From assembly GCA_023663185.1 (NCBI GenBank), contig JAMPHY010000009.1, forward strand, positions 63,751 to 127,750: a DNA stretch of 64,000 nt, given 5' to 3'. A program made the position numbers and the translations under genes. Within the stretch, counting starts at the first letter, position 1, and each line of letters opens with the position of its first letter. The notes below the pieces were generated by a model, which saw only the letters and a list, made by a program, of their open reading frames with translations, was not told where the DNA came from and made no database searches. Source of the stretch: Clostridiales bacterium. Its GTDB lineage: Bacteria > Bacillota > Clostridia > Lachnospirales > Lachnospiraceae. This document shows, one piece after another, positions 34,001 to 49,410 of the stretch.

Positions 34001-36931
34001 TTAATTCATATAATTAATATTCATGTCCACATTGCCGTTTATGCCGCCTATGGTTCCTTTGCTGGAATACTGCCACATATCGACTCTGGTTCTTGTATAA
34101 GTAGGCGCCGCCGCATACTGTGCAAGCCATATCTTATAACTTGTAAGCGCCGGGGCATTTATATAACTCTCAAGCCATGTCTTATTCGCATATATCCCCG
34201 CCTTGTAGCCGGAATTTTGTATCGTCTGGCAAAAAGCCTGACATACTGCCGTTCTGGAATCCGCGCTGATTGCATCCCCGCGTCCGCTACTTGGCTCCAC
34301 GTCCAAGAACACGGGCAGAGACAGATTATATCCCTTAATTAAACTCAAGACCATAGAGGCTTCTTCTACTGCTTCTACGTCATTTACTGCCTGAGTAAAG
34401 AAATATACTCCGACTTTAATTCCGGCATTCTGCGCGCCCTGTATGTTAGCGCGAAATTTCGGGTCTTCAATCAAAGCGCCGGTAGTAGAACCGCGGTATC
34501 CGCATCTTATTATAGCATATGATATACCAGAATTTTTAACGGCATTCCAATCGATACTGCCATTCCACTTGGACACATCTATTCCCAACACTCCTGAGCC
34601 GGAAGAAAGGCGTCCTGTTGCATCAAACGAGTATTTTGCACCCTGAATGACCTGTTCGCCGGTAACATAATTTCCATTCTTATCAAAGAAATATGTATAA
34701 CCGTCTATGGTCTGCCAGCCTGTATAAGAATATGAAGCGTTAGCATTCCTTAAGTAAAATGTGGAATTGGTATAGTAGTCTGCATATACTGCTTCCGCAT
34801 AACTGCCGTCAGATTTTTTAATATAAATCTGATTTCCATTTTTGTCCTTTAATTTTGAGGTATAGTTGCTCGCAGCGTCATTAACAACTTTAACTTTCCA
34901 TTCCGCTTTAGCGTCTCCACAGGTTCCTGTAATTGTTACCTCGCCTACGGTAACGCCTGTTATTGTTCCATCGGCATCTATTTTTGCAATGCCGGTATTA
35001 CTGCTTGTCCATTCGACTTTTCCACCTTCTGGGTTTGATTTCGCGGTAAGTTTTATGGTCTTACCCACGCGGACAGTGTTGTCACCGGAGATGGTAAGGG
35101 AGGTATATTTAATTACAGGTTCAGTAACGGTGACTGTAATTTTTTCGCTCACTTTACTATTATCTTCGTTACTACATTCGGCTGTAATTGTAGCTGTTCC
35201 AGCAGTAACACCTGTTATTTTTCCACTGCCATCTACTGTTACATTACCATTATCGCTAGACCATGTGACAGTACCACCTGCCGGCTCCGTCGTCGCACTA
35301 AGCTGCTTCGTGCTGCCTTTTTCTATACTAGTGCTGTCGCCTTCGGCTATTGTGACTTTTGTATATACTGTTGGTTTCGGTTCTGTAGGTTGTTCAGGCT
35401 CTGTCGGTTTCGGTTCAACTGTCGGGTCTGTAGGCTTTTCAGTTAGTGTATCGTCACCGCCGACTCCCCCTTCATTTCCGCTTACGGTTTTTTCCCCCTC
35501 AGTAGAAGGTGTACTCGTGAACTTCATAAACCCTGCCGCCCTCGCGATAGTCGCCGGGTCCGGAATATCAGATGCGTTAATCTGGGTATAATTACTGTCA
35601 GAGTTAAGCTCGGTTTTAGTAGAAGGCACCCATTCTACAGTATCGGTCAAAACGGATTCTATTTCTGTATTTTGCTGTGCCGTATCTTCTACTGCAACGT
35701 TAATCTCCGCCTCTGTCTTGATTTCGTCCTCAACATCTACTTTTTTATACTCTATCGTATCTATAACTTTTACAGTTTGGCTCTCTGAAGGCAAAGAATA
35801 CTTACTATACGCCTCGTCCGTCAAAGCGACTACTTTTACAGTATATGTACCGGCTGCAATTCCATTCTGATATATAATTCCGTCCTTATCATCATCCTTA
35901 AGGTTATATGTCTTATTGCTTCCTACAACTTCTACTTCAAAAGGTACACCACCTATAAGTTTATTTGTCTTTTTATTATCAAATTTAATCTTAATATCAG
36001 ATTTAATGGTAGTAATATTAATGCCAACTTCTATTACATTAACGACTTTTTCCTCTTCGGGAGCATTAGTCTCCTGTTCTTCCGCTTCATCTCCTATTAC
36101 TAACATCTGGGATAGTCTTGCGGATTCTGCATCGGCAACGGCTATCAGCCCGCTTTCTCCGATAACTTCTATGCTCTCTACTTCTGTTCCAACCTCTGCA
36201 AAAGCTTCTACCTGTTTATCCTCTGCCCTTGCCGTCAAATAGATATTTCCGACTATAATAGCAGCTATTAATATGAAGCAGCCGAATCCCCCCACAACAT
36301 AATCCAGCGGAGTAAGCTGCTTAAAGAAATACACTATACGCTCAGCCGCACTTCCAGTATATTTCGCACTATGTTCGTAATCCTCTTCATCTTCGTAGTC
36401 TACTTCTTCGTCATCGTCGTCCTCATAGTCCTCGTCTTCGTAGTCTACTTCTTCGTCGTCATCGTCCTCATAGTCCTCATCTTCGTAATCTACTTCGTCA
36501 CCGTCTTCTTCGTCCTCATAATCCTCGTCTTCGTAGTCTACTTCCTCATCGTCTTCTTCGTCCTCATAGTCCTCGTCTTCGTAGTCTACTTCTTCATCGT
36601 CTTCTTCGTCCTCATAGTCCTCATCTTCGTAGTCTACTTCTTCATCGTCTTCTTCGTCCTCATAGTCCTCATCTTCGTAGTCTACTTCTTCATCGTCTTC
36701 TTCGTCCTCATAATCCTCATCTTCGTAATCTACTTCTTCGTCTTCATAATCCTCATCTTCGTAATCTACCTCTTCGTCCTCATAATCTTCCTCATAGCGA
36801 CTACGTGAACTTTTTCTTGATTTAAAAGCATGAGATTTTTTTTCATACGATGCGATAGTATCATCGTCCAGACTCAAAAACTCCAATGTATCCTCAAGGT
36901 TATTCTGGTTATTTTTATCTGTCCTTTTCAT
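34001..36931 (-). CDS. large membrane-anchored GH25 muramidase with acidic cytoplasmic repeats
   Basis: This 976-residue protein, read from N to C, has a basic start, an acidic repeat region (about 46-187) made only of Asp, Glu, Tyr and Val, and a membrane helix (about 211-234). A SpaA-like beta domain follows (about 305-395, KTNKLIGGVPFEVEVVG), then a Pro/Thr/Glu linker (about 485-530). Two Big_2-type bacterial Ig domains come next (LSATTEPAGGTVTWSS, LTAKSNPEGGKVEWTSS), then two choline-binding-like repeats (GWQTIDGYTYFFDKNGNYV). The C-terminal GH25 domain has [13 protein letters not shown] and catalytic DxE in FLDVEP. It probably cuts peptidoglycan while tethered across the wall. A promoter lies at 36979-37007. 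Confidence 0.88.
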   Translation of the reverse strand: MKRTDKNNQNNLEDTLEFLSLDDDTIASYEKKSHAFKSRKSSRSRYEEDYEDEEVDYEDEDYEDEEVDYEDEDYEDEEDDEEVDYEDEDYEDEEDDEEVDYEDEDYEDEEDDEEVDYEDEDYEDEEDDEEVDYEDEDYEDEEDGDEVDYEDEDYEDDDDEEVDYEDEDYEDDDDEEVDYEDEEDYEHSAKYTGSAAERIVYFFKQLTPLDYVVGGFGCFILIAAIIVGNIYLTARAEDKQVEAFAEVGTEVESIEVIGESGLIAVADAESARLSQMLVIGDEAEEQETNAPEEEKVVNVIEVGINITTIKSDIKIKFDNKKTNKLIGGVPFEVEVVGSNKTYNLKDDDKDGIIYQNGIAAGTYTVKVVALTDEAYSKYSLPSESQTVKVIDTIEYKKVDVEDEIKTEAEINVAVEDTAQQNTEIESVLTDTVEWVPSTKTELNSDSNYTQINASDIPDPATIARAAGFMKFTSTPSTEGEKTVSGNEGGVGGDDTLTEKPTDPTVEPKPTEPEQPTEPKPTVYTKVTIAEGDSTSIEKGSTKQLSATTEPAGGTVTWSSDNGNVTVDGSGKITGVTAGTATITAECSNEDNSKVSEKITVTVTEPVIKYTSLTISGDNTVRVGKTIKLTAKSNPEGGKVEWTSSNTGIAKIDADGTITGVTVGEVTITGTCGDAKAEWKVKVVNDAASNYTSKLKDKNGNQIYIKKSDGSYAEAVYADYYTNSTFYLRNANASYSYTGWQTIDGYTYFFDKNGNYVTGEQVIQGAKYSFDATGRLSSGSGVLGIDVSKWNGSIDWNAVKNSGISYAIIRCGYRGSTTGALIEDPKFRANIQGAQNAGIKVGVYFFTQAVNDVEAVEEASMVLSLIKGYNLSLPVFLDVEPSSGRGDAISADSRTAVCQAFCQTIQNSGYKAGIYANKTWLESYINAPALTSYKIWLAQYAAAPTYTRTRVDMWQYSSKGTIGGINGNVDMNINYMN
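36370..36796 (-). repeat. 48-nt tandem repeat coding for acidic D/E/Y units
   Basis: Nine tandem units start with EVDYEDEDYEDE. Most are 16 residues (48 nt, ending EDDE); the edges have 12- and 15-residue variants. Near-identical DNA across five central units points to recent expansion by unequal crossing-over or slippage. Confidence 0.88.
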
Positions 36932-43564: not shown

Positions 43565-43727
43565 TTCACAATCATATATGGCATAGACTCATATGTTTTC
43601 CTTCGTAGCACGCTCTCGCTCCGTGGAAAATCGCAGCGGTACTAAGCTCGAAAAAACCTCGCTAAGTACCGGCGTTTTCCAAGGGCTGCTCAGGAAAACA
43701 TATGAGTCCATGCCTCTAGGCTGTGAA
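43565..43727. repeat. nested palindromic repeat element, copy 1
   Basis: TTCACA (43565) and TGTGAA (43722) mark the ends. The outer arms at 43581-43601 and 43693-43713 pair in 20 of 21 positions. Inside, GGAAAA...CGGTACTAAG at 43625-43646 pairs with CTAAGTACCG...TTTTCC at 43662-43680. Several blocks of 15 or more nt recur inverted in copy 2 at 47.6 kb, such as the GCACGCTCTCGCTCC block at 43608. It fills most of the 314-nt gene-free stretch between ugd and the kinase gene. No coding potential is seen. Confidence 0.8.
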
Positions 43728-43745: not shown

Positions 43746-45113
43746 TTATTTTAACATCAAATGCGGATATACATAGGAAGAATCGGACTGATGCTCAGTG
43801 CTTTCATGCTCATCTTGAATCGGTAAAATAGCATTAACAACATATCTACCACCTTGCTTATTATTTTCGATAATTCCACCGTATTTTCTTACAATATTTT
43901 GTACGCTGTTTAATCCTATACCGTGCTTATTTCCTATCTGTTCCACGCTTTTTACTACAGTTTTCCTTAGCCTTAGTTTGTTATCATAATCATTTTCAAG
44001 ATGAATTACTATATGCCTGCCGTCTCTCGCCGTTCTCATATTAAGCAGAACAGGATTCTGATTATTGACGTACTTCTGCGCATCTATGGCGTTATCCAGC
44101 AGATTTCCTATAAGAGTAATAAGGTCAGAGTCCTGTATATTGTGCAAATTAAGCGGCTCAATAATCTCCATTTCTAGCGCAACGCCATTATCGGCAGCAT
44201 AGCCTTTTCTTTCTAACAACAAAGCGTTCAATACTTTATTACTGCATATTAACCCCTGCCCTATGTTCCCAACATCGATTCTCATTTGAGCAATAATACT
44301 GCTTATATTTTCGCAATCTCCATCTTCAGAAAGCGCTGCTATCGCTCTAAGCTGGTGCTTTATATCATGTATAAACGTATCATACTTTTCGTGCATATCT
44401 TCTATATTCTGATAATACTCTGCTAACTTTTCCAAACGAATGTTGATATTTTCGAGTTCCCTTGCTTTCACCAGCACTTCACCAAATATTCCATATAAGT
44501 GAACCATTGCTAAGACTGATACTATAAGGACAATATTCGCTATAACAAAACCAATACTCATTACTACACCCATATCAAGTACATCTTCCAATATATAAAG
44601 ACAGGCGGCAAATCCACAGACTACTATAGCAATCGAGTCAAATATCAGACGCTGCTTCATGGAATATCTTGATTTCATATTTAAATCCACTTTTGACACA
44701 GGCAGTTTCTTTACAGTCCACAATATTGCAGCTATCAGGACAGCTTCCACTAAAAATGCCAAAAGAGGTGAAACCACCGAAATATCGCTTAAGAAGTGAG
44801 TTGCCAGACATTCCAGCGATATACAGACAGCATGGTTGACAACTGTATAGAAAAATAATACTCCATAACGTCCGCTAAAAAGAATTATTGAAACAATAAG
44901 GCTGCACGCAATTCCCAACGCCATAGAAAACGCTGCGTTTCCCATCTCATTTGAATAGTATCTTACTACCGAAGCAAATAAAATAACAGCTATTATTATT
45001 CCATGATTCAGTTTTCTTCTGTTTACAAATTCCTTTAACCATATGTATAAAAAGCCAGTTTCCAATAAAGCTGTCAGTAACCCCATTCCTATACCTAAAT
45101 ATCCCATAATCAT
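43746..45113 (-). CDS. GHKL-domain sensor histidine kinase, AgrC-like
   Basis: This 455-residue protein has about six N-terminal membrane helices (roughly 1-215) and a cytoplasmic coiled coil (LENINIRLEKLAEYYQN). A dimerisation helix with the phosphoacceptor region FIHDIKHQLRAI and a GHKL ATPase domain with N-box NLLDNAIDA and G-box KHGIGLNSVQNIV follow. This is the AgrC/CitA-type plan for peptide-sensing kinases. It is transcribed divergently from agrBD, whose start is 297 nt away. Two LytTR regulators are coded at 47.8-49.3 kb as likely targets. The start at 45113 has only a distant AAGGAA. The C-terminal tail after the ATPase domain is unusually long and polar. Confidence 0.85.
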   Translation of the reverse strand: MIMGYLGIGMGLLTALLETGFLYIWLKEFVNRRKLNHGIIIAVILFASVVRYYSNEMGNAAFSMALGIACSLIVSIILFSGRYGVLFFYTVVNHAVCISLECLATHFLSDISVVSPLLAFLVEAVLIAAILWTVKKLPVSKVDLNMKSRYSMKQRLIFDSIAIVVCGFAACLYILEDVLDMGVVMSIGFVIANIVLIVSVLAMVHLYGIFGEVLVKARELENINIRLEKLAEYYQNIEDMHEKYDTFIHDIKHQLRAIAALSEDGDCENISSIIAQMRIDVGNIGQGLICSNKVLNALLLERKGYAADNGVALEMEIIEPLNLHNIQDSDLITLIGNLLDNAIDAQKYVNNQNPVLLNMRTARDGRHIVIHLENDYDNKLRLRKTVVKSVEQIGNKHGIGLNSVQNIVRKYGGIIENNKQGGRYVVNAILPIQDEHESTEHQSDSSYVYPHLMLK

Positions 45114-45410
45114 TTATCAAGCCGTTCCTTTCATTCCTTACTCCATTATCTTAAGTAATAATGTTGTAGCGCTGAATTTTAGTATGCTTCTATATTGCCT
45201 CAAAACTTATAACTATTGATGATATTTGCCTGAACCGTATATTTTTTATACCGAACGAGCTGATATTTTGGAAAAAACTGCAATTTTTGCTCATTTTTAT
45301 GAATTTTTTGCCGTTTAAGAGCAAAATTTGTTAGTTCAAGCTTAAAAAACGATTGTTGGGTATTTTTATATTAGAATTAAAAAACAAAAGAGAGGAAGGG
45401 AGCAGTTCAT
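45114..45410. promoter_or_regulatory. divergent control region between kinase gene and agrBD
   Basis: This 297-nt AT-rich gap holds no gene. Facing agrB, a -10-like TATATT (45367-45372) has no matching -35 box, as in promoters that need an activator. Two direct copies of TTGTT(A/G)G lie upstream, at 45328 and 45353. An imperfect inverted repeat (TTTTTGCTC...GAGCAAAA) lies near 45285-45328. LytTR regulators bind paired direct repeats, so these are candidate sites, but the spacing of 25 nt is a little wide. Confidence 0.3.
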
Positions 45411-45983
45411 ATGGATTCTATTTTGAGCAAAGTCCAAAAAGAATATGGATATTCAGATTATGAGATTAAGCTGATAAAATTTTCTCTGACCGGAATTTTT
45501 TATGATTTGAGTAAGACGTTAATATTTATGGTTTACTTCTATGCCACAGGCAAATTTATAGAGTTTATCTTCGCCGCAGTTCCACTTATACTGCTGCGAA
45601 CCAAAACAGGCGGAATACATTTAAAGAAATATTGGTCGTGTTTCCTATTCTCACTTGCCTATTTCCTTGCAGTTATATATGTACTGCCAGCACTAATCAC
45701 AGTACACCCACTGGCTGTGTATGCAATCCTATTAGTATGTGCGATTATGGATTATATGCTTGGACCTAACACCCTAAGCAAAAGACCTGCACCAGCAGAA
45801 GATTTTATTAAGAAAGCAAAGATACAAAGTTTTCAGGTGGTATTTATTGTAGCAGTATTATTTTTTATCTTTCCTAATGTTCCTTATCTTATTGTTAGTT
45901 TTTGGACTGTTGTGTTGCATACAGTTCAATTATCTATAGTGAAATTATTAAAGGAGGTGAAGTATCATGAAGAATTGGCTTAG
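45411..45983 (+). CDS. agrB: AgrB-like peptide-processing membrane protease
   Basis: This 190-residue polytopic protein has about six hydrophobic segments. The catalytic pair of AgrB is intact: His70 in KTGGIHL and Cys77 in YWSCFLF, seven residues apart as His77 and Cys84 are in Staphylococcus aureus AgrB. AgrB cuts the C-terminal tail of AgrD and closes the (thio)lactone ring. The start has GGAAGGGAG. Its last 17 nt overlap the agrD gene, whose AAGGAGGTGA lies inside agrB, so the two are translated together. The neighbouring histidine kinases and LytTR regulators complete an agr-type quorum-sensing set. Confidence 0.92.
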   Translation: MDSILSKVQKEYGYSDYEIKLIKFSLTGIFYDLSKTLIFMVYFYATGKFIEFIFAAVPLILLRTKTGGIHLKKYWSCFLFSLAYFLAVIYVLPALITVHPLAVYAILLVCAIMDYMLGPNTLSKRPAPAEDFIKKAKIQSFQVVFIVAVLFFIFPNVPYLIVSFWTVVLHTVQLSIVKLLKEVKYHEELA

Positions 45984-46095
45984 GAAGAATATGGCTACTA
46001 TTTGTAGTCTTTGTCTTGGATATACAGTATGGTATCGTATTGGCACATTTAGTCATTTTCTTTTTGGAGAACCAGATTTTCCGGTTGAAGACTAA
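45967..46095 (+). CDS. agrD: AgrD-like cyclic autoinducer precursor with Ser ring residue
   Basis: This 42-residue peptide is coded just after agrB, overlapping it by 17 nt, with a near-perfect AAGGAGGTGA 6 nt before the ATG. The N-terminus is basic (MKNWLRKN) and amphipathic. The C-terminus GEPDFPVED at 34-42 matches the conserved acidic tail of AgrD (xEPxxPxE). Counting five residues back from the cut site before G34 gives the ring S29-H-F-L-F33. The ring-closing residue is therefore Ser, implying a lactone rather than a thiolactone. Cys13 and Cys16 lie too far upstream for the usual ring. Ser-type autoinducers are known in Staphylococcus intermedius. The gene is short and easily missed by standard gene calling. 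Confidence 0.88.
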   Translation: MKNWLRKNMATICSLCLGYTVWYRIGTFSHFLFGEPDFPVED

Positions 46096-46106: not shown

Positions 46107-46150
46107 AAAGAGGCAGGAATCGTCTTTATGATTTCTGCCTCTTTTCTTTT
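46107..46150. terminator. terminator shared by agrBD and the convergent kinase gene
   Basis: AAAGAGGCAGGAAT (46107-46120) pairs with ATTTCTGCCTCTTT (46131-46144) with one wobble, around a 10-nt loop. TTTTCTTTT follows on the plus strand. It lies 11 nt after agrD and overlaps the last codons of the kinase gene on the minus strand. Confidence 0.85.
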
Positions 46151-47436
46151 GGTATTACCACGGTAAAGATAAGACAATTCTCACCGCCTCGTTTTTCATT
46201 ACTTACAATAATATTTCCGTTTCTCTCATGTACAAGCCGTTTCAATTTGGACAGACCAATTCCACGTCCTTTTCCTTTACTACTGTATCCGTTCTCAAAG
46301 AAACGCGCTGTCATATCATCTTCATAATAAGCACTGGTATTGGCTACCACCAATTCTATATTTCTCTCTGTATCTTTGATGGAGAAAAATATTTTCTTAA
46401 TAGGATTGCTACCTTCCGTATCTGCGTCAACATTAGTCAACGCTTCTATAGCATTATCAGTCAGAATACCCATCATTTCTACCAGTTCATATTCCGGCAC
46501 AACTAAGGTTTCTTTCTTAATCTCAATTTCATATTCTACCTCAATACATTTACTTTCTGCTTCCTGTATCTTACTATACATAAAGCCAGCAATCAACGGA
46601 TTTCCTGACGCAAGCACTAATTTCGTCTTTTCATTCTGCTCGATTACATATCCGCAGTATTCTTTCTGTTTCTCTGTCAATTCCTCATAGTTATCTGTAG
46701 TATATATCATGCTTAGTATAGCATTAATATGGTTCTTCATATCATGTTGCCGCTCTCTGACAAGCATAATCAACTTATCATATGCTTCGTAATACAGACT
46801 GTTCATTTCCAACTGCGCTTTTCTCTTTTCCGCTTCGACTCTAGATTTCTGCCATTCATATATAACAAATAGAAATAATAAAATGAAATATATCATTTGA
46901 ACATATATTTCTTTCAATATTGCCCCTTCTTCTCTCATTTGATAGAAGTTTAATATAAGTCCACACAAAATCAGAATTGAAACTCCCACAATCAATTTAT
47001 CTCTTTTAATAAAAAAATCCGACAATTTCTTTATATTTATTTTACGACTACATAATATAATAACTAATAAACTTATCGTATTAATTATTAATTCATTAAT
47101 ATCTATATTCTCGTATTTTACATAGAACAAACTATATGAAGGTAAAAACAACATCAATTGTAAAACTGCAACAACCATTGCCGCAATAAAGCAATTTACT
47201 ACAGTAAGCTTAATGCTTTCTCTATAACACAGCATTCCATATACAAACATGCAAATATAGCTTAGTGAAATAAGATATTCAGGAAAACCATATTGGTCGA
47301 TACCTACCATTAAAAACATATCTAGAATTATATAAACCACAAGATAAATATCAATTTTAAGCTTCTTCCCAAATAATTCAGCCAGGCAATATAAGTAAGC
47401 AAATAATTCTATAATAATTAGAATGTCACTAATCAT
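46126..47436 (-). CDS. GHKL-domain sensor histidine kinase, second AgrC-like
   Basis: This 436-residue protein has about six membrane helices (roughly 1-195) and a linker of charged helix (EWQKSRVEAEKRKAQLEMN). The phosphoacceptor segment ERQHDMKNHINAI is the classic AgrC form. The GHKL ATPase domain has N-box GILTDNAIEAL and G-box GRGIGLSKL. Its HDMKNH motif is closer to AgrC than that of the other kinase in this island. It converges on agrBD with 30 nt between stop codons. The two LytTR regulators lie upstream on the same strand, beyond the second palindromic element. It is the best candidate receptor for the peptide. Confidence 0.88.
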   Translation of the reverse strand: MISDILIIIELFAYLYCLAELFGKKLKIDIYLVVYIILDMFLMVGIDQYGFPEYLISLSYICMFVYGMLCYRESIKLTVVNCFIAAMVVAVLQLMLFLPSYSLFYVKYENIDINELIINTISLLVIILCSRKINIKKLSDFFIKRDKLIVGVSILILCGLILNFYQMREEGAILKEIYVQMIYFILLFLFVIYEWQKSRVEAEKRKAQLEMNSLYYEAYDKLIMLVRERQHDMKNHINAILSMIYTTDNYEELTEKQKEYCGYVIEQNEKTKLVLASGNPLIAGFMYSKIQEAESKCIEVEYEIEIKKETLVVPEYELVEMMGILTDNAIEALTNVDADTEGSNPIKKIFFSIKDTERNIELVVANTSAYYEDDMTARFFENGYSSKGKGRGIGLSKLKRLVHERNGNIIVSNEKRGGENCLIFTVVIPKEKRQKS

Positions 47437-47593: not shown

Positions 47594-47798
47594 TTCACAA
47601 CTTTTGGGCGGCATGGACTCATATGCTTCCTCTTGAGGTCCTTGCAAAACGCCGGTACTTAGTGAAAAAGCTGCTTTTTAAGCTTTTGAACTTAGTACCG
47701 CTGCGTAACAATAAGAATGTCCGCGCAGCGTGGCATTCGTTTGTTTATACACTGGAGCGAGAGCGTGCCTCAAGAGGAAGCATATGAGTCCATGCCGC
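47594..47798. repeat. nested palindromic repeat element, copy 2 with perfect 31-bp arms
   Basis: Outer arms 47608-47638 and 47768-47798 are perfectly complementary over 31 nt. Inside, CGCCGGTACTTAG (47650-47662) pairs with CTTAGTACCGCTGCG (47691-47705). A further small stem lies between them, and a 40-50 nt insert at about 47706-47753 is absent from copy 1. Blocks such as GGAGCGAGAGCGTGC (47754-47768) match copy 1 on the opposite strand. It fills most of the 368-nt gap between the kinase start and the response regulator stop. The right arm ends 6 nt before that stop. No coding potential is seen. Confidence 0.85.
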
Positions 47799-47804
47799 AT
47801 TATA

Positions 47805-48524
47805 TCACATCATTTCATTCAAAAACTTATGCTTAAACGCACTCCCAAACTCAATCATTTCCTTAACATCTTTCAGTTGCACATACTTATTGACAACATC
47901 AATCTTATCTATGTAATCCGTATTAATTATATGAAACCTACTACATTGCACAAATTTATCCGAACCCAGTTCTTCCAATATTTTCTTAATAGGCTTATAA
48001 GGAAGGCTAAGATTTCCATTAGTACAATGAACAATCTGTCCCGCTCTGCTGTTCTCTATATAGAGAATATCCGAAATCTGCTTTTTATACAAAATCCCGT
48101 CTTTGCGGAAGAATATACTCTGAGGTTCACTGTCATTTGCAGGAAAATCAAGCGCTTCGGCAATAACCTCAGATACCTTCTTCACATCATACGGTTTCTC
48201 AACGTAATAATAACAATGAAGATCACTATATGCGTATAATTCAGGATCTTCTAGTGCAGTAGTGAATATTATAGGAGTGTACTTATACTTCTTAAATGTG
48301 CGAATATACTTGGCAAAACTCATTCCCGATACATCGCTGGGATTGGAAGTATTTAAAACAATATCCAGCATAAACAAGTCGATATTGTTTTTCATCGCCA
48401 AAAGAGTTGCCTCTTCCTCGTTAGAAGCTGTTTTTATCTCCACATCATTTCTGACATTCTCTATTATTTTGACAAGCATATCCCTGCTTCTAATGTTATC
48501 TTCTACAATAAGAACCGTTTTCAT
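47805..48524 (-). CDS. LytTR-type response regulator
   Basis: This 239-residue protein has a receiver domain (about 1-125) with acidic VEDN, phosphoacceptor Asp in LFMLDIVL near residue 54, and the Lys in YYVEKPYD. A LytTR DNA-binding domain follows (about 140-238, ISDILYIENSRAGQIVHC, LPYKPIKKILEEL, FVQCSRFHIINTDYIDKID). LytTR regulators pair with AgrC-type kinases and bind direct repeats upstream of target promoters. The gene lies 24 nt after the other regulator, so the two form one unit. Its receiver has a longer loop after the Asp (NTSNPSDVSG) than AgrA, so it is the more divergent of the pair. Confidence 0.9.
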   Translation of the reverse strand: MKTVLIVEDNIRSRDMLVKIIENVRNDVEIKTASNEEEATLLAMKNNIDLFMLDIVLNTSNPSDVSGMSFAKYIRTFKKYKYTPIIFTTALEDPELYAYSDLHCYYYVEKPYDVKKVSEVIAEALDFPANDSEPQSIFFRKDGILYKKQISDILYIENSRAGQIVHCTNGNLSLPYKPIKKILEELGSDKFVQCSRFHIINTDYIDKIDVVNKYVQLKDVKEMIEFGSAFKHKFLNEMM

Positions 48525-48548: not shown

Positions 48549-49283
48549 CTATAAAATGTATCTTACGCAGGCTGCCCTAAAGGATTTCTCTTTAGACCTG
48601 CTTATGCTTAAGCGCATGCCGTTTTTCAGCTCCAATTCATGTGTATCCCATTGTTTCAGATAATGGCAGTTCACCAAATAACTGTTATGTGGGACAGCAA
48701 ATCCAAATACGCATAACTGCTCATACAGTTCTTTAATCTTTTCCCTGACATTAATAACCGTTATTTCATCAGGAATATCATAATAGTGAATATTGCTTCC
48801 GTTCTTGGCAATTTCTATATACAGAATCTTGTCCACATCAAGAGGTATCATGCTTTTGCCTTTAGTAACCATAATCTTATTTTTCTCTTGACGCCTGTAC
48901 ATCTCCTGCACTGTTTCGAGCAGACTTTTCCTTAACTCTCTCTTCTGTTCTTTGCGTATATAACGATAAGGAGTGCACTTAAAGTCCGACGTCTTCGGCG
49001 TGGTTTTATCCGTGCAGAATACCAGCAGTCCGTCTTTATTCAGTTTTCGATATTCTTTGGCAATTTCCCTGCCGCTTCTACCGGGGAGCATAATATCCAT
49101 TATCACCAGATTATATCTGCTCACGCTTGCCTTGAGCAAATCCTCGCCGTTATTAAACATGGATATTTTAAAATCTCCCTGTTTCAGTTCGCCCTCAAGC
49201 AGAATATCTCTTATCTCGCGTGCGCTTTTCCTTTCATCGTCACAAATTGCAATCCATAATAATTCTTCACCTGTGTAATACAT
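48549..49283 (-). CDS. LytTR-type response regulator, AgrA-like
   Basis: The ATG at 49283 is chosen, 9 nt after AAGAGG; an upstream ATG at 49292 touches the site. The 244-residue protein has a receiver domain with IAICDDE, phosphoacceptor Asp in LVIMDIMLPG and Lys in YRYIRKEQ. A LytTR domain (about 135-242) contains DVDKILYIEIAKNG, FAVPHNSYLVNCHYLKQWD and ELKNGMRLSISRS. This is the AgrA/VirR plan. It is the first gene of a regulator pair and is divergent from the first XRE gene. It is the most likely partner of one of the two kinases here. Confidence 0.9.
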   Translation of the reverse strand: MYYTGEELLWIAICDDERKSAREIRDILLEGELKQGDFKISMFNNGEDLLKASVSRYNLVIMDIMLPGRSGREIAKEYRKLNKDGLLVFCTDKTTPKTSDFKCTPYRYIRKEQKRELRKSLLETVQEMYRRQEKNKIMVTKGKSMIPLDVDKILYIEIAKNGSNIHYYDIPDEITVINVREKIKELYEQLCVFGFAVPHNSYLVNCHYLKQWDTHELELKNGMRLSISRSKEKSFRAACVRYIL

Positions 49284-49410
49284 AATCTTCATCCTCTTAT
49301 AGTCTTTCTCTTTATTTTACATCATTAACTATGTTTATTTTCTATTTACAACATAGTATGGTAGTTATTTTCATTTTATTACACTTTACAGTATTTCATC
49401 AAACAACAAC

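Follow-up and report, generated by a model that had tools for sequence, protein, structure and literature searches.

A serine-type AgrD precursor with a predicted five-residue lactone ring in an agr-type locus of the Lachnospiraceae

The DNA analysed here is a stretch of 64,000 nucleotides from a genome of the Lachnospiraceae (the window). In this stretch, agrB and a small agrD gene lie on the forward strand between two genes for histidine kinases, followed by two genes for response regulators on the opposite strand (Table 1). Positions 45967-46095 translate to MKNWLRKNMATICSLCLGYTVWYRIGTFSHFLFGEPDFPVED. As agrB covers 45411-45983 and agrD starts at 45967, the two genes overlap by 17 nt, and the ribosome binding site AAAGGAGGTGA ends six bases upstream of the agrD ATG. 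A sequence-only reading of this DNA had described a 42-codon agrD with a 17-nt overlap and a good ribosome binding site within agrB. Coordinates and translation agree with it, and the core of the binding site, GGAGGTGA, was found in all 17 family members having an AgrD of 42 aa (17/17), while three other members carry the variant AGAGGTGA.

Table 1. Features of the agr-type locus in the window
Feature	Position	Strand	Basis
HK1, an accessory second GHKL kinase transcribed divergently from agrB	43746..45113	-	15/19 relatives
Conserved block upstream of agrB, candidate promoter or operator	45326..45378	+	9 loci aligned
agrB, membrane peptidase expected to cut and cyclise AgrD	45411..45983	+	Pfam AgrB; catalytic motif
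agrD ribosome binding site AAAGGAGGTGA, located within agrB	45950..45960	+	Read from sequence; core conservation
agrD, 42-aa autoinducing-peptide precursor	45967..46095	+	Translation; 19 relatives behind AgrB orthologues
Predicted ring codons S29-H-F-L-F33 (Ser codon AGT, 46051-46053)	46051..46065	+	Column 29 Ser or Cys only
Tail GEPDFPVED, presumed to be recognised and removed by AgrB	46066..46092	+	Invariant residues in 20/20
Intrinsic terminator with 17 pairs that follows agrD and overlaps HK2 at its 3' end	46107..46144	+	Terminator prediction
Histidine kinase HK2, probable AgrC, convergent with agrD	46126..47436	-	GHKL domain; in 19/19 relatives
LytTR response regulator RR1, probable AgrA	47805..48524	-	Response_reg and LytTR
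Second LytTR response regulator RR2, accessory	48549..49292	-	Domain match; 10/19 relatives

Searching 77 genomes of the genus (its own included) with the peptide returned the window and 16 matches in 15 other genomes (E <= 4e-8), one genome (G007) having two copies. Each of these matches adjoins an AgrB orthologue with at least 61% identity to the AgrB of the window, so agrD is not a chance open reading frame. Three more distant members gave weak E-values (0.05-0.13) and their AgrB proteins are 40-45% identical, but the peptide is still encoded behind AgrB. Altogether, 19 relatives have agrD in the same place, immediately adjacent to agrB and in the same orientation. When all pairs of the 17 members were compared with the agrB overlap left out, the differences at the first, second and third codon positions amounted to 1672, 1447 and 2542, and the excess at third positions is as expected for coding sequence. 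The peptide starts with MK[NST]WL[KR][KR]N in 16/17 members, the remaining one having V for M. Judged by translation, gene order and conservation, 45967-46095 encodes an AgrD-type precursor of a putative cell-to-cell signal peptide.

The agrB product matches the Pfam family AgrB (PF04647) with 95.1 bits (cut-off 23; E 4.4e-27), and its residues R63, G68, H70 and C77 correspond by spacing to R70, G75, H77 and C84, which are described as required in AgrB of Staphylococcus aureus (PMC10196373). The same R/G/H/C spacing is present in 20/20 AgrB proteins of the window's clade, including those of the two members with a Cys-type AgrD, and in 105/107 other AgrBs of the set. Counted against the reading as an agr locus, the AgrB-like model of NCBIfam gave 34 bits with the window AgrB (cut-off 282). 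No relative of AgrB with a solved structure was found at E <= 1. The same genome contains a second AgrB (L002, contig C4) between a GHKL kinase and a LytTR regulator, beside which no AgrD was recognised by the tail pattern. In three other loci (L003, L008 and L028 of genomes G016, G032 and G037), AgrB continues in the same reading frame into a long C-terminal extension. The two fusions that were scanned (L003 and L028) have a Pfam von Willebrand A domain, and just upstream of all three lies an AgrD whose ring place is occupied by Ser-Cys or Thr-Cys.

A homologue of HK2, convergent to agrD and within about 1.2 kb, was found in 19/19 relatives (two of them cut by a contig end), and its sensor half is 31-69% identical to that of the window in the 18 alignable relatives. 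RR1 lies near HK2 in 13/19 relatives, the contig ends in 4, and in L101 and L102 it was not found despite sufficient room, which was counted against the reading as an agr locus. The deepest relatives (L113-L115) have HK2, two RR1-like genes and an HTH2-like stretch, but no match to HK1 or RR2. In 6/15 relatives with HK1 (L103, L104, L107, L108, L110 and L112), the sensor half of this kinase is lost and a kinase-only open reading frame of 225-272 aa is left. Since HK2 is present throughout and has kept its sensor half, while HK1 has lost it in these six, HK2 and RR1 are the probable AgrC/AgrA pair by domain type and place. HK1 was also considered as the cognate receptor and is not favoured, being unseen in L113-L115 (and in L101, where the contig ends) and sensor-less in the six relatives named. 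Counted against the assignment of HK2 and RR1, the best NCBIfam match of HK2 was a DcuS/MalK-type kinase (78.2 bits, below the cut-off), and the staphylococcal models for AgrC and AgrA gave 43.1 bits with HK2 and 30.5 bits with RR1, both far below their cut-offs.

Genes for a UDP-glucose dehydrogenase and a sugar epimerase adjoin the locus (Pfam), and further polysaccharide genes were named by eye; the UDP-glucose dehydrogenase is found near the locus in 12/19 relatives. A promoter scan yielded no more sites than shuffled sequences. In the nearest relatives, the conserved block upstream of agrB contains a pair of half sites with GTT, spaced by about 25 nt, which may be bound by a regulator. 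Intergenic copies of a dispersed repeat, whose complementary ends measure about 30 nt and which resembles MITE or REP elements, lie at 43580-43714 and 47608-47798. A role of these copies as borders of an HK1-agrBD-HK2 cassette was ruled out, because the second copy gave 102 match rows in its own genome (arms on both strands counted), which marks the repeat as a multi-copy element. Elsewhere in the window, 34001-36931 encodes a large protein with acidic repeats of the EDYEDEEVDYEDE type near its N-terminus.

In the AgrD of the window, Ser29 opens the sequence SHFLF, which is followed by G and then by EPDFP, and the only cysteines are Cys13 and Cys16. The sequence-only reading had placed the start of the ring at Ser29 and had fitted the tail GEPDFPVED to the rule of a five-residue ring, one residue and EPxxP. 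It had proposed an alignment of homologues as a check and had named a Cys at the ring position as an outcome that would speak against Ser. Across 20 family members, this column is occupied by Ser 18 times, by Cys twice (L105 with CLCLF, L106 with CNFLF) and by nothing else. Among the 17 members of 42 aa, position 29 is Ser in 15 (codons AGT in 9 and AGC in 6) and Cys in 2 (both TGT), while position 28 has nine residue types and position 30 has six. As only an exchange of oxygen for sulphur occurs at this one fixed column, column 29 is taken as the ring nucleophile. The two Cys residues, one base away from Ser, do not have the refuting effect foreseen but identify the nucleophile, which supports the reading with Ser. 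The residues F33, G34, E35, P36 and P39 are invariant, and GEPxxP is present in 20/20, in line with the proposed tail. The pattern used to locate the peptides itself required GE[PS]x[FLVI]P, yet each of the 19 loci, picked by similarity of AgrB or AgrD, had one. The first tail residue of the clade is Gly at the place of the Asp D33 of S. aureus, which was counted against a Ser-type AgrD. With the catalytic residues of AgrB kept, the ring of the window AgrD is very probably closed by Ser instead of Cys, and a lactone is predicted.

Closure of the ring through Cys13 or Cys16 was rejected and is hardly conceivable. Although both are common (14/17 each), each is missing in 3/17. At 16 and 13 residues ahead of the ring position, they are too distant from the tail, and in both Cys-type relatives the Cys stands exactly at column 29; the view that the upstream cysteines are unfit for the ring was therefore sustained. 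A Ser-closed AgrD could also form another ring, either by a cut one residue later (SHFLFG, six residues) or through a Ser or Thr near position 27. Rings of 6 and 9 residues have been described (PMC4916163), and in a class-level sample 5/17 tailed AgrDs have a Cys one or two residues further up (hand count). The cut site is not decided by Phe33 and Gly34, as neither of them varies. However, column 29 alone is restricted to Ser and Cys, position 27 being S, G, T, A or E, and the proven peptide of Clostridium thermocellum is cut between the residues equivalent to F33 and G34 (PMC5322536), which makes another ring unlikely.

The window peptide had no match in the models of Pfam, NCBIfam or PHROGs, which was counted against its explanation as a Ser-type AgrD; a match to a curated AgrD profile is a detection aid and was not counted as defining. 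The NCBIfam AgrD model TIGR04223 scored 50.7 and 53.6 bits with two Cys-type AgrDs of the order (cut-off 19), and 14.2 bits (E 0.037), below the cut-off, with the Cys-type clade member L105. According to the ungapped ranges, the ring Cys (Cys29 in L105) lies on profile position 23, likewise in both typical Cys-type AgrDs. At E <= 0.1, the model detected 19/20 Cys-type AgrDs (the first 20 such rows not belonging to the clade) and 14/20 Ser-type AgrDs outside the clade, and 1/20 in the window's clade, this one below the cut-off. Most of the other Ser-type precursors are therefore AgrDs by this model too, while the window's clade escapes. The idea that Ser alone hides the precursor from TIGR04223 was not borne out by these 14/20, and Ser alone does not explain the escape of the clade, because L106, one of its two Cys members, is also missed. 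The window's clade is an AgrD group missed by the curated AgrD model.

Motifs around the AgrB active site were compared between Ser- and Cys-type loci. The motif of L082 (Cys), HAKTYWGC, is that of its Ser-type sisters L084, L085 and L086, and the motif of L106 (Cys), HMQKYWSC, is that of Ser-type L111, while HFNRYWSC of L105 (Cys) has no counterpart in its neighbours. In this comparison, no change of the AgrB active-site motif consistently accompanies the switch between Ser and Cys. Serine is the weaker nucleophile, which would favour a relic or a linear peptide that is cut but not cyclised. Against this, Ser is present in 18/20 members with AgrB and the receptor intact, and Ser lactones are known from Staphylococcus pseudintermedius, Enterococcus faecalis and C. 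thermocellum (PMC3673130, PMC12312760, PMC5322536), so that such a peptide is very improbable.

For the survey of the order, 168 distinct AgrB open reading frames from the genus and the order were used, which were the best-scoring or hand-picked ones among the matches listed and hence form a non-random sample. An automatic rule yielded AgrD candidates for 129 of them and none for 39. Two candidates (L007, L222) were dropped by hand as spurious, leaving 127 classified AgrDs. Five were relabelled as Cys, namely L021 and L022 (better candidates) and L137, L181 and L224 (Cys one residue further up), and nine rows with Ser or Thr next to Cys and three others were set apart. L086 appears in the trees under the name of a spurious candidate; its better candidate, SAILF, is also of the Ser type. 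In this non-random sample, the 127 AgrDs comprised 77 with Cys, 38 with Ser, 9 ambiguous and 3 others, and outside the window's clade (n=107) the numbers were 75, 20, 9 and 3. Ser-Cys stands at the ring place in L003, L025, L028, L150, L154, L204, L205 and L223, and Thr-Cys in L008; because the two residues are adjacent, this group is ambiguous in nucleophile and ring size. The earlier statement that Ser rings are rare thus applies to the characterised autoinducers in the papers cited here, but not to the genomes of this order as represented in the non-random sample (20/107 outside the clade). In a class-level draw of 196 genomes, 77 had AgrB, and 17 of 30 loci examined had a recognisable tail, with a five-residue Cys ring in 10, a longer Cys ring in 5 and Ser in 2 (hand count). 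In the class-level loci L239, L240, L250, L251 and L258, the Cys further up would give a ring of six or seven residues.

A quick tree of the 127 AgrBs required at least 11 changes between Cys and Ser over its 115 rows of either type. With 34 AgrBs, a careful tree required 6 (bootstrap range 6-6), of which three lie inside a Ser clade of 26 rows and one within the pair that forms the outgroup; the changes were counted without direction, and long branches make the deeper part of this tree less sure. Forcing the three Cys rows of the Ser clade together was rejected with a p-AU of 4.7e-149, the group having been chosen by label after the quick tree. The simplest reading is that Ser is ancestral in the clade and that Cys was regained.

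Taken together, the region is very probably a quorum-sensing locus of the agr type whose AgrD belongs to the Ser type, and from this AgrD the AgrB would make the predicted SHFLF lactone to be read by HK2 and RR1. Following the known mechanism of AgrB, Cys77 would cut AgrD after Phe33, and the hydroxyl group of Ser29 would close the ring to the five-residue lactone. A second cut upstream would set the N-terminal tail, and the exported peptide would be sensed by HK2 (AgrC), which would phosphorylate RR1 (AgrA). The neighbouring polysaccharide genes as targets are one guess. The chances are about even that, in the Lachnospirales, single-base changes at the ring position repeatedly convert Ser- into Cys-type autoinducers and vice versa, with no consistent change in the AgrB active-site motif. 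If true, AgrB would not distinguish between the two nucleophiles, and lactones would be a common and recurrent autoinducer chemistry in the Lachnospirales, overlooked because Cys is the ring residue of the model species and because the curated AgrD model misses some groups of the Ser type, the window's clade among them.

The chemistry of Ser rings is already known, though little studied; in the window's group of Lachnospiraceae it is conserved, with Cys at the same position in a few members. The analysis predicts the structure of a Lachnospiraceae signal and provides natural Ser/Cys pairs with closely related AgrBs, such as SNFLF (L109) and CNFLF (L106). Such a natural switch series makes discrimination between lactone and thiolactone by AgrB and receptor testable within one family. 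In the literature, a paper on the Listeria autoinducing peptide mentions replacement of the central Cys by Ser in some cases (PMC4916163). A review from 2023 reports agr genes in 199 genomes of rumen bacteria and describes the evidence for peptide signalling as limited (PMC10838665). A Lachnospiraceae genome with an array of cyclic lactone autoinducer genes has been published in a paper whose main text contains neither 'AgrD' nor 'serine' (PMC11352710). No other paper on Ser-type AgrDs of this group was found among the matches listed, as judged by title or start of the abstract, with subscription journals and preprints outside the scope.

Among known systems, AgrD Clo1313_2818 of C. thermocellum, for which LC-MS/MS confirmed a lactone pentapeptide spanning Ser25 to Phe29, is likewise a clostridial AgrD with a five-residue, Ser-closed ring ending in Phe, and it has a Pro five residues beyond the residue following the ring, so that the spacing from ring end to Pro is equal (PMC5322536). 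It differs in having no apparent agr operon beside it (PMC5322536), while agrB, kinase and regulator genes are adjacent here and the tail reads GEPxxP. A primer from 2025 lists the autoinducer of S. pseudintermedius and GBAP of E. faecalis as Ser-closed lactones (PMC12312760). The S. pseudintermedius/intermedius peptide, RIPTSTGFF with the tail DEPEIP, shares with the window AgrD a Ser five residues before the cut, an EPxxP tail and an agr locus (PMC4774685, PMC3673130). Ring and leader differ, its tail starts with Asp instead of Gly (PMC4774685, PMC3673130), and kinase and regulator are encoded on the opposite strand in the window. Exchange of this Ser for Cys lowered RNAIII expression in S. 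pseudintermedius (PMC3673130). GBAP/FsrD is also a Ser-closed lactone from an agr-like locus, but with a ring of nine residues in an 11-residue peptide (PMC12312760). With AgrBD of S. aureus, the locus shares the spacing of R, G, H and C in AgrB and a glutamate as the second residue after the cut site, whereas the S. aureus ring is a Cys-closed thiolactone and D33, essential for cleavage there, is Gly here (PMC10196373).
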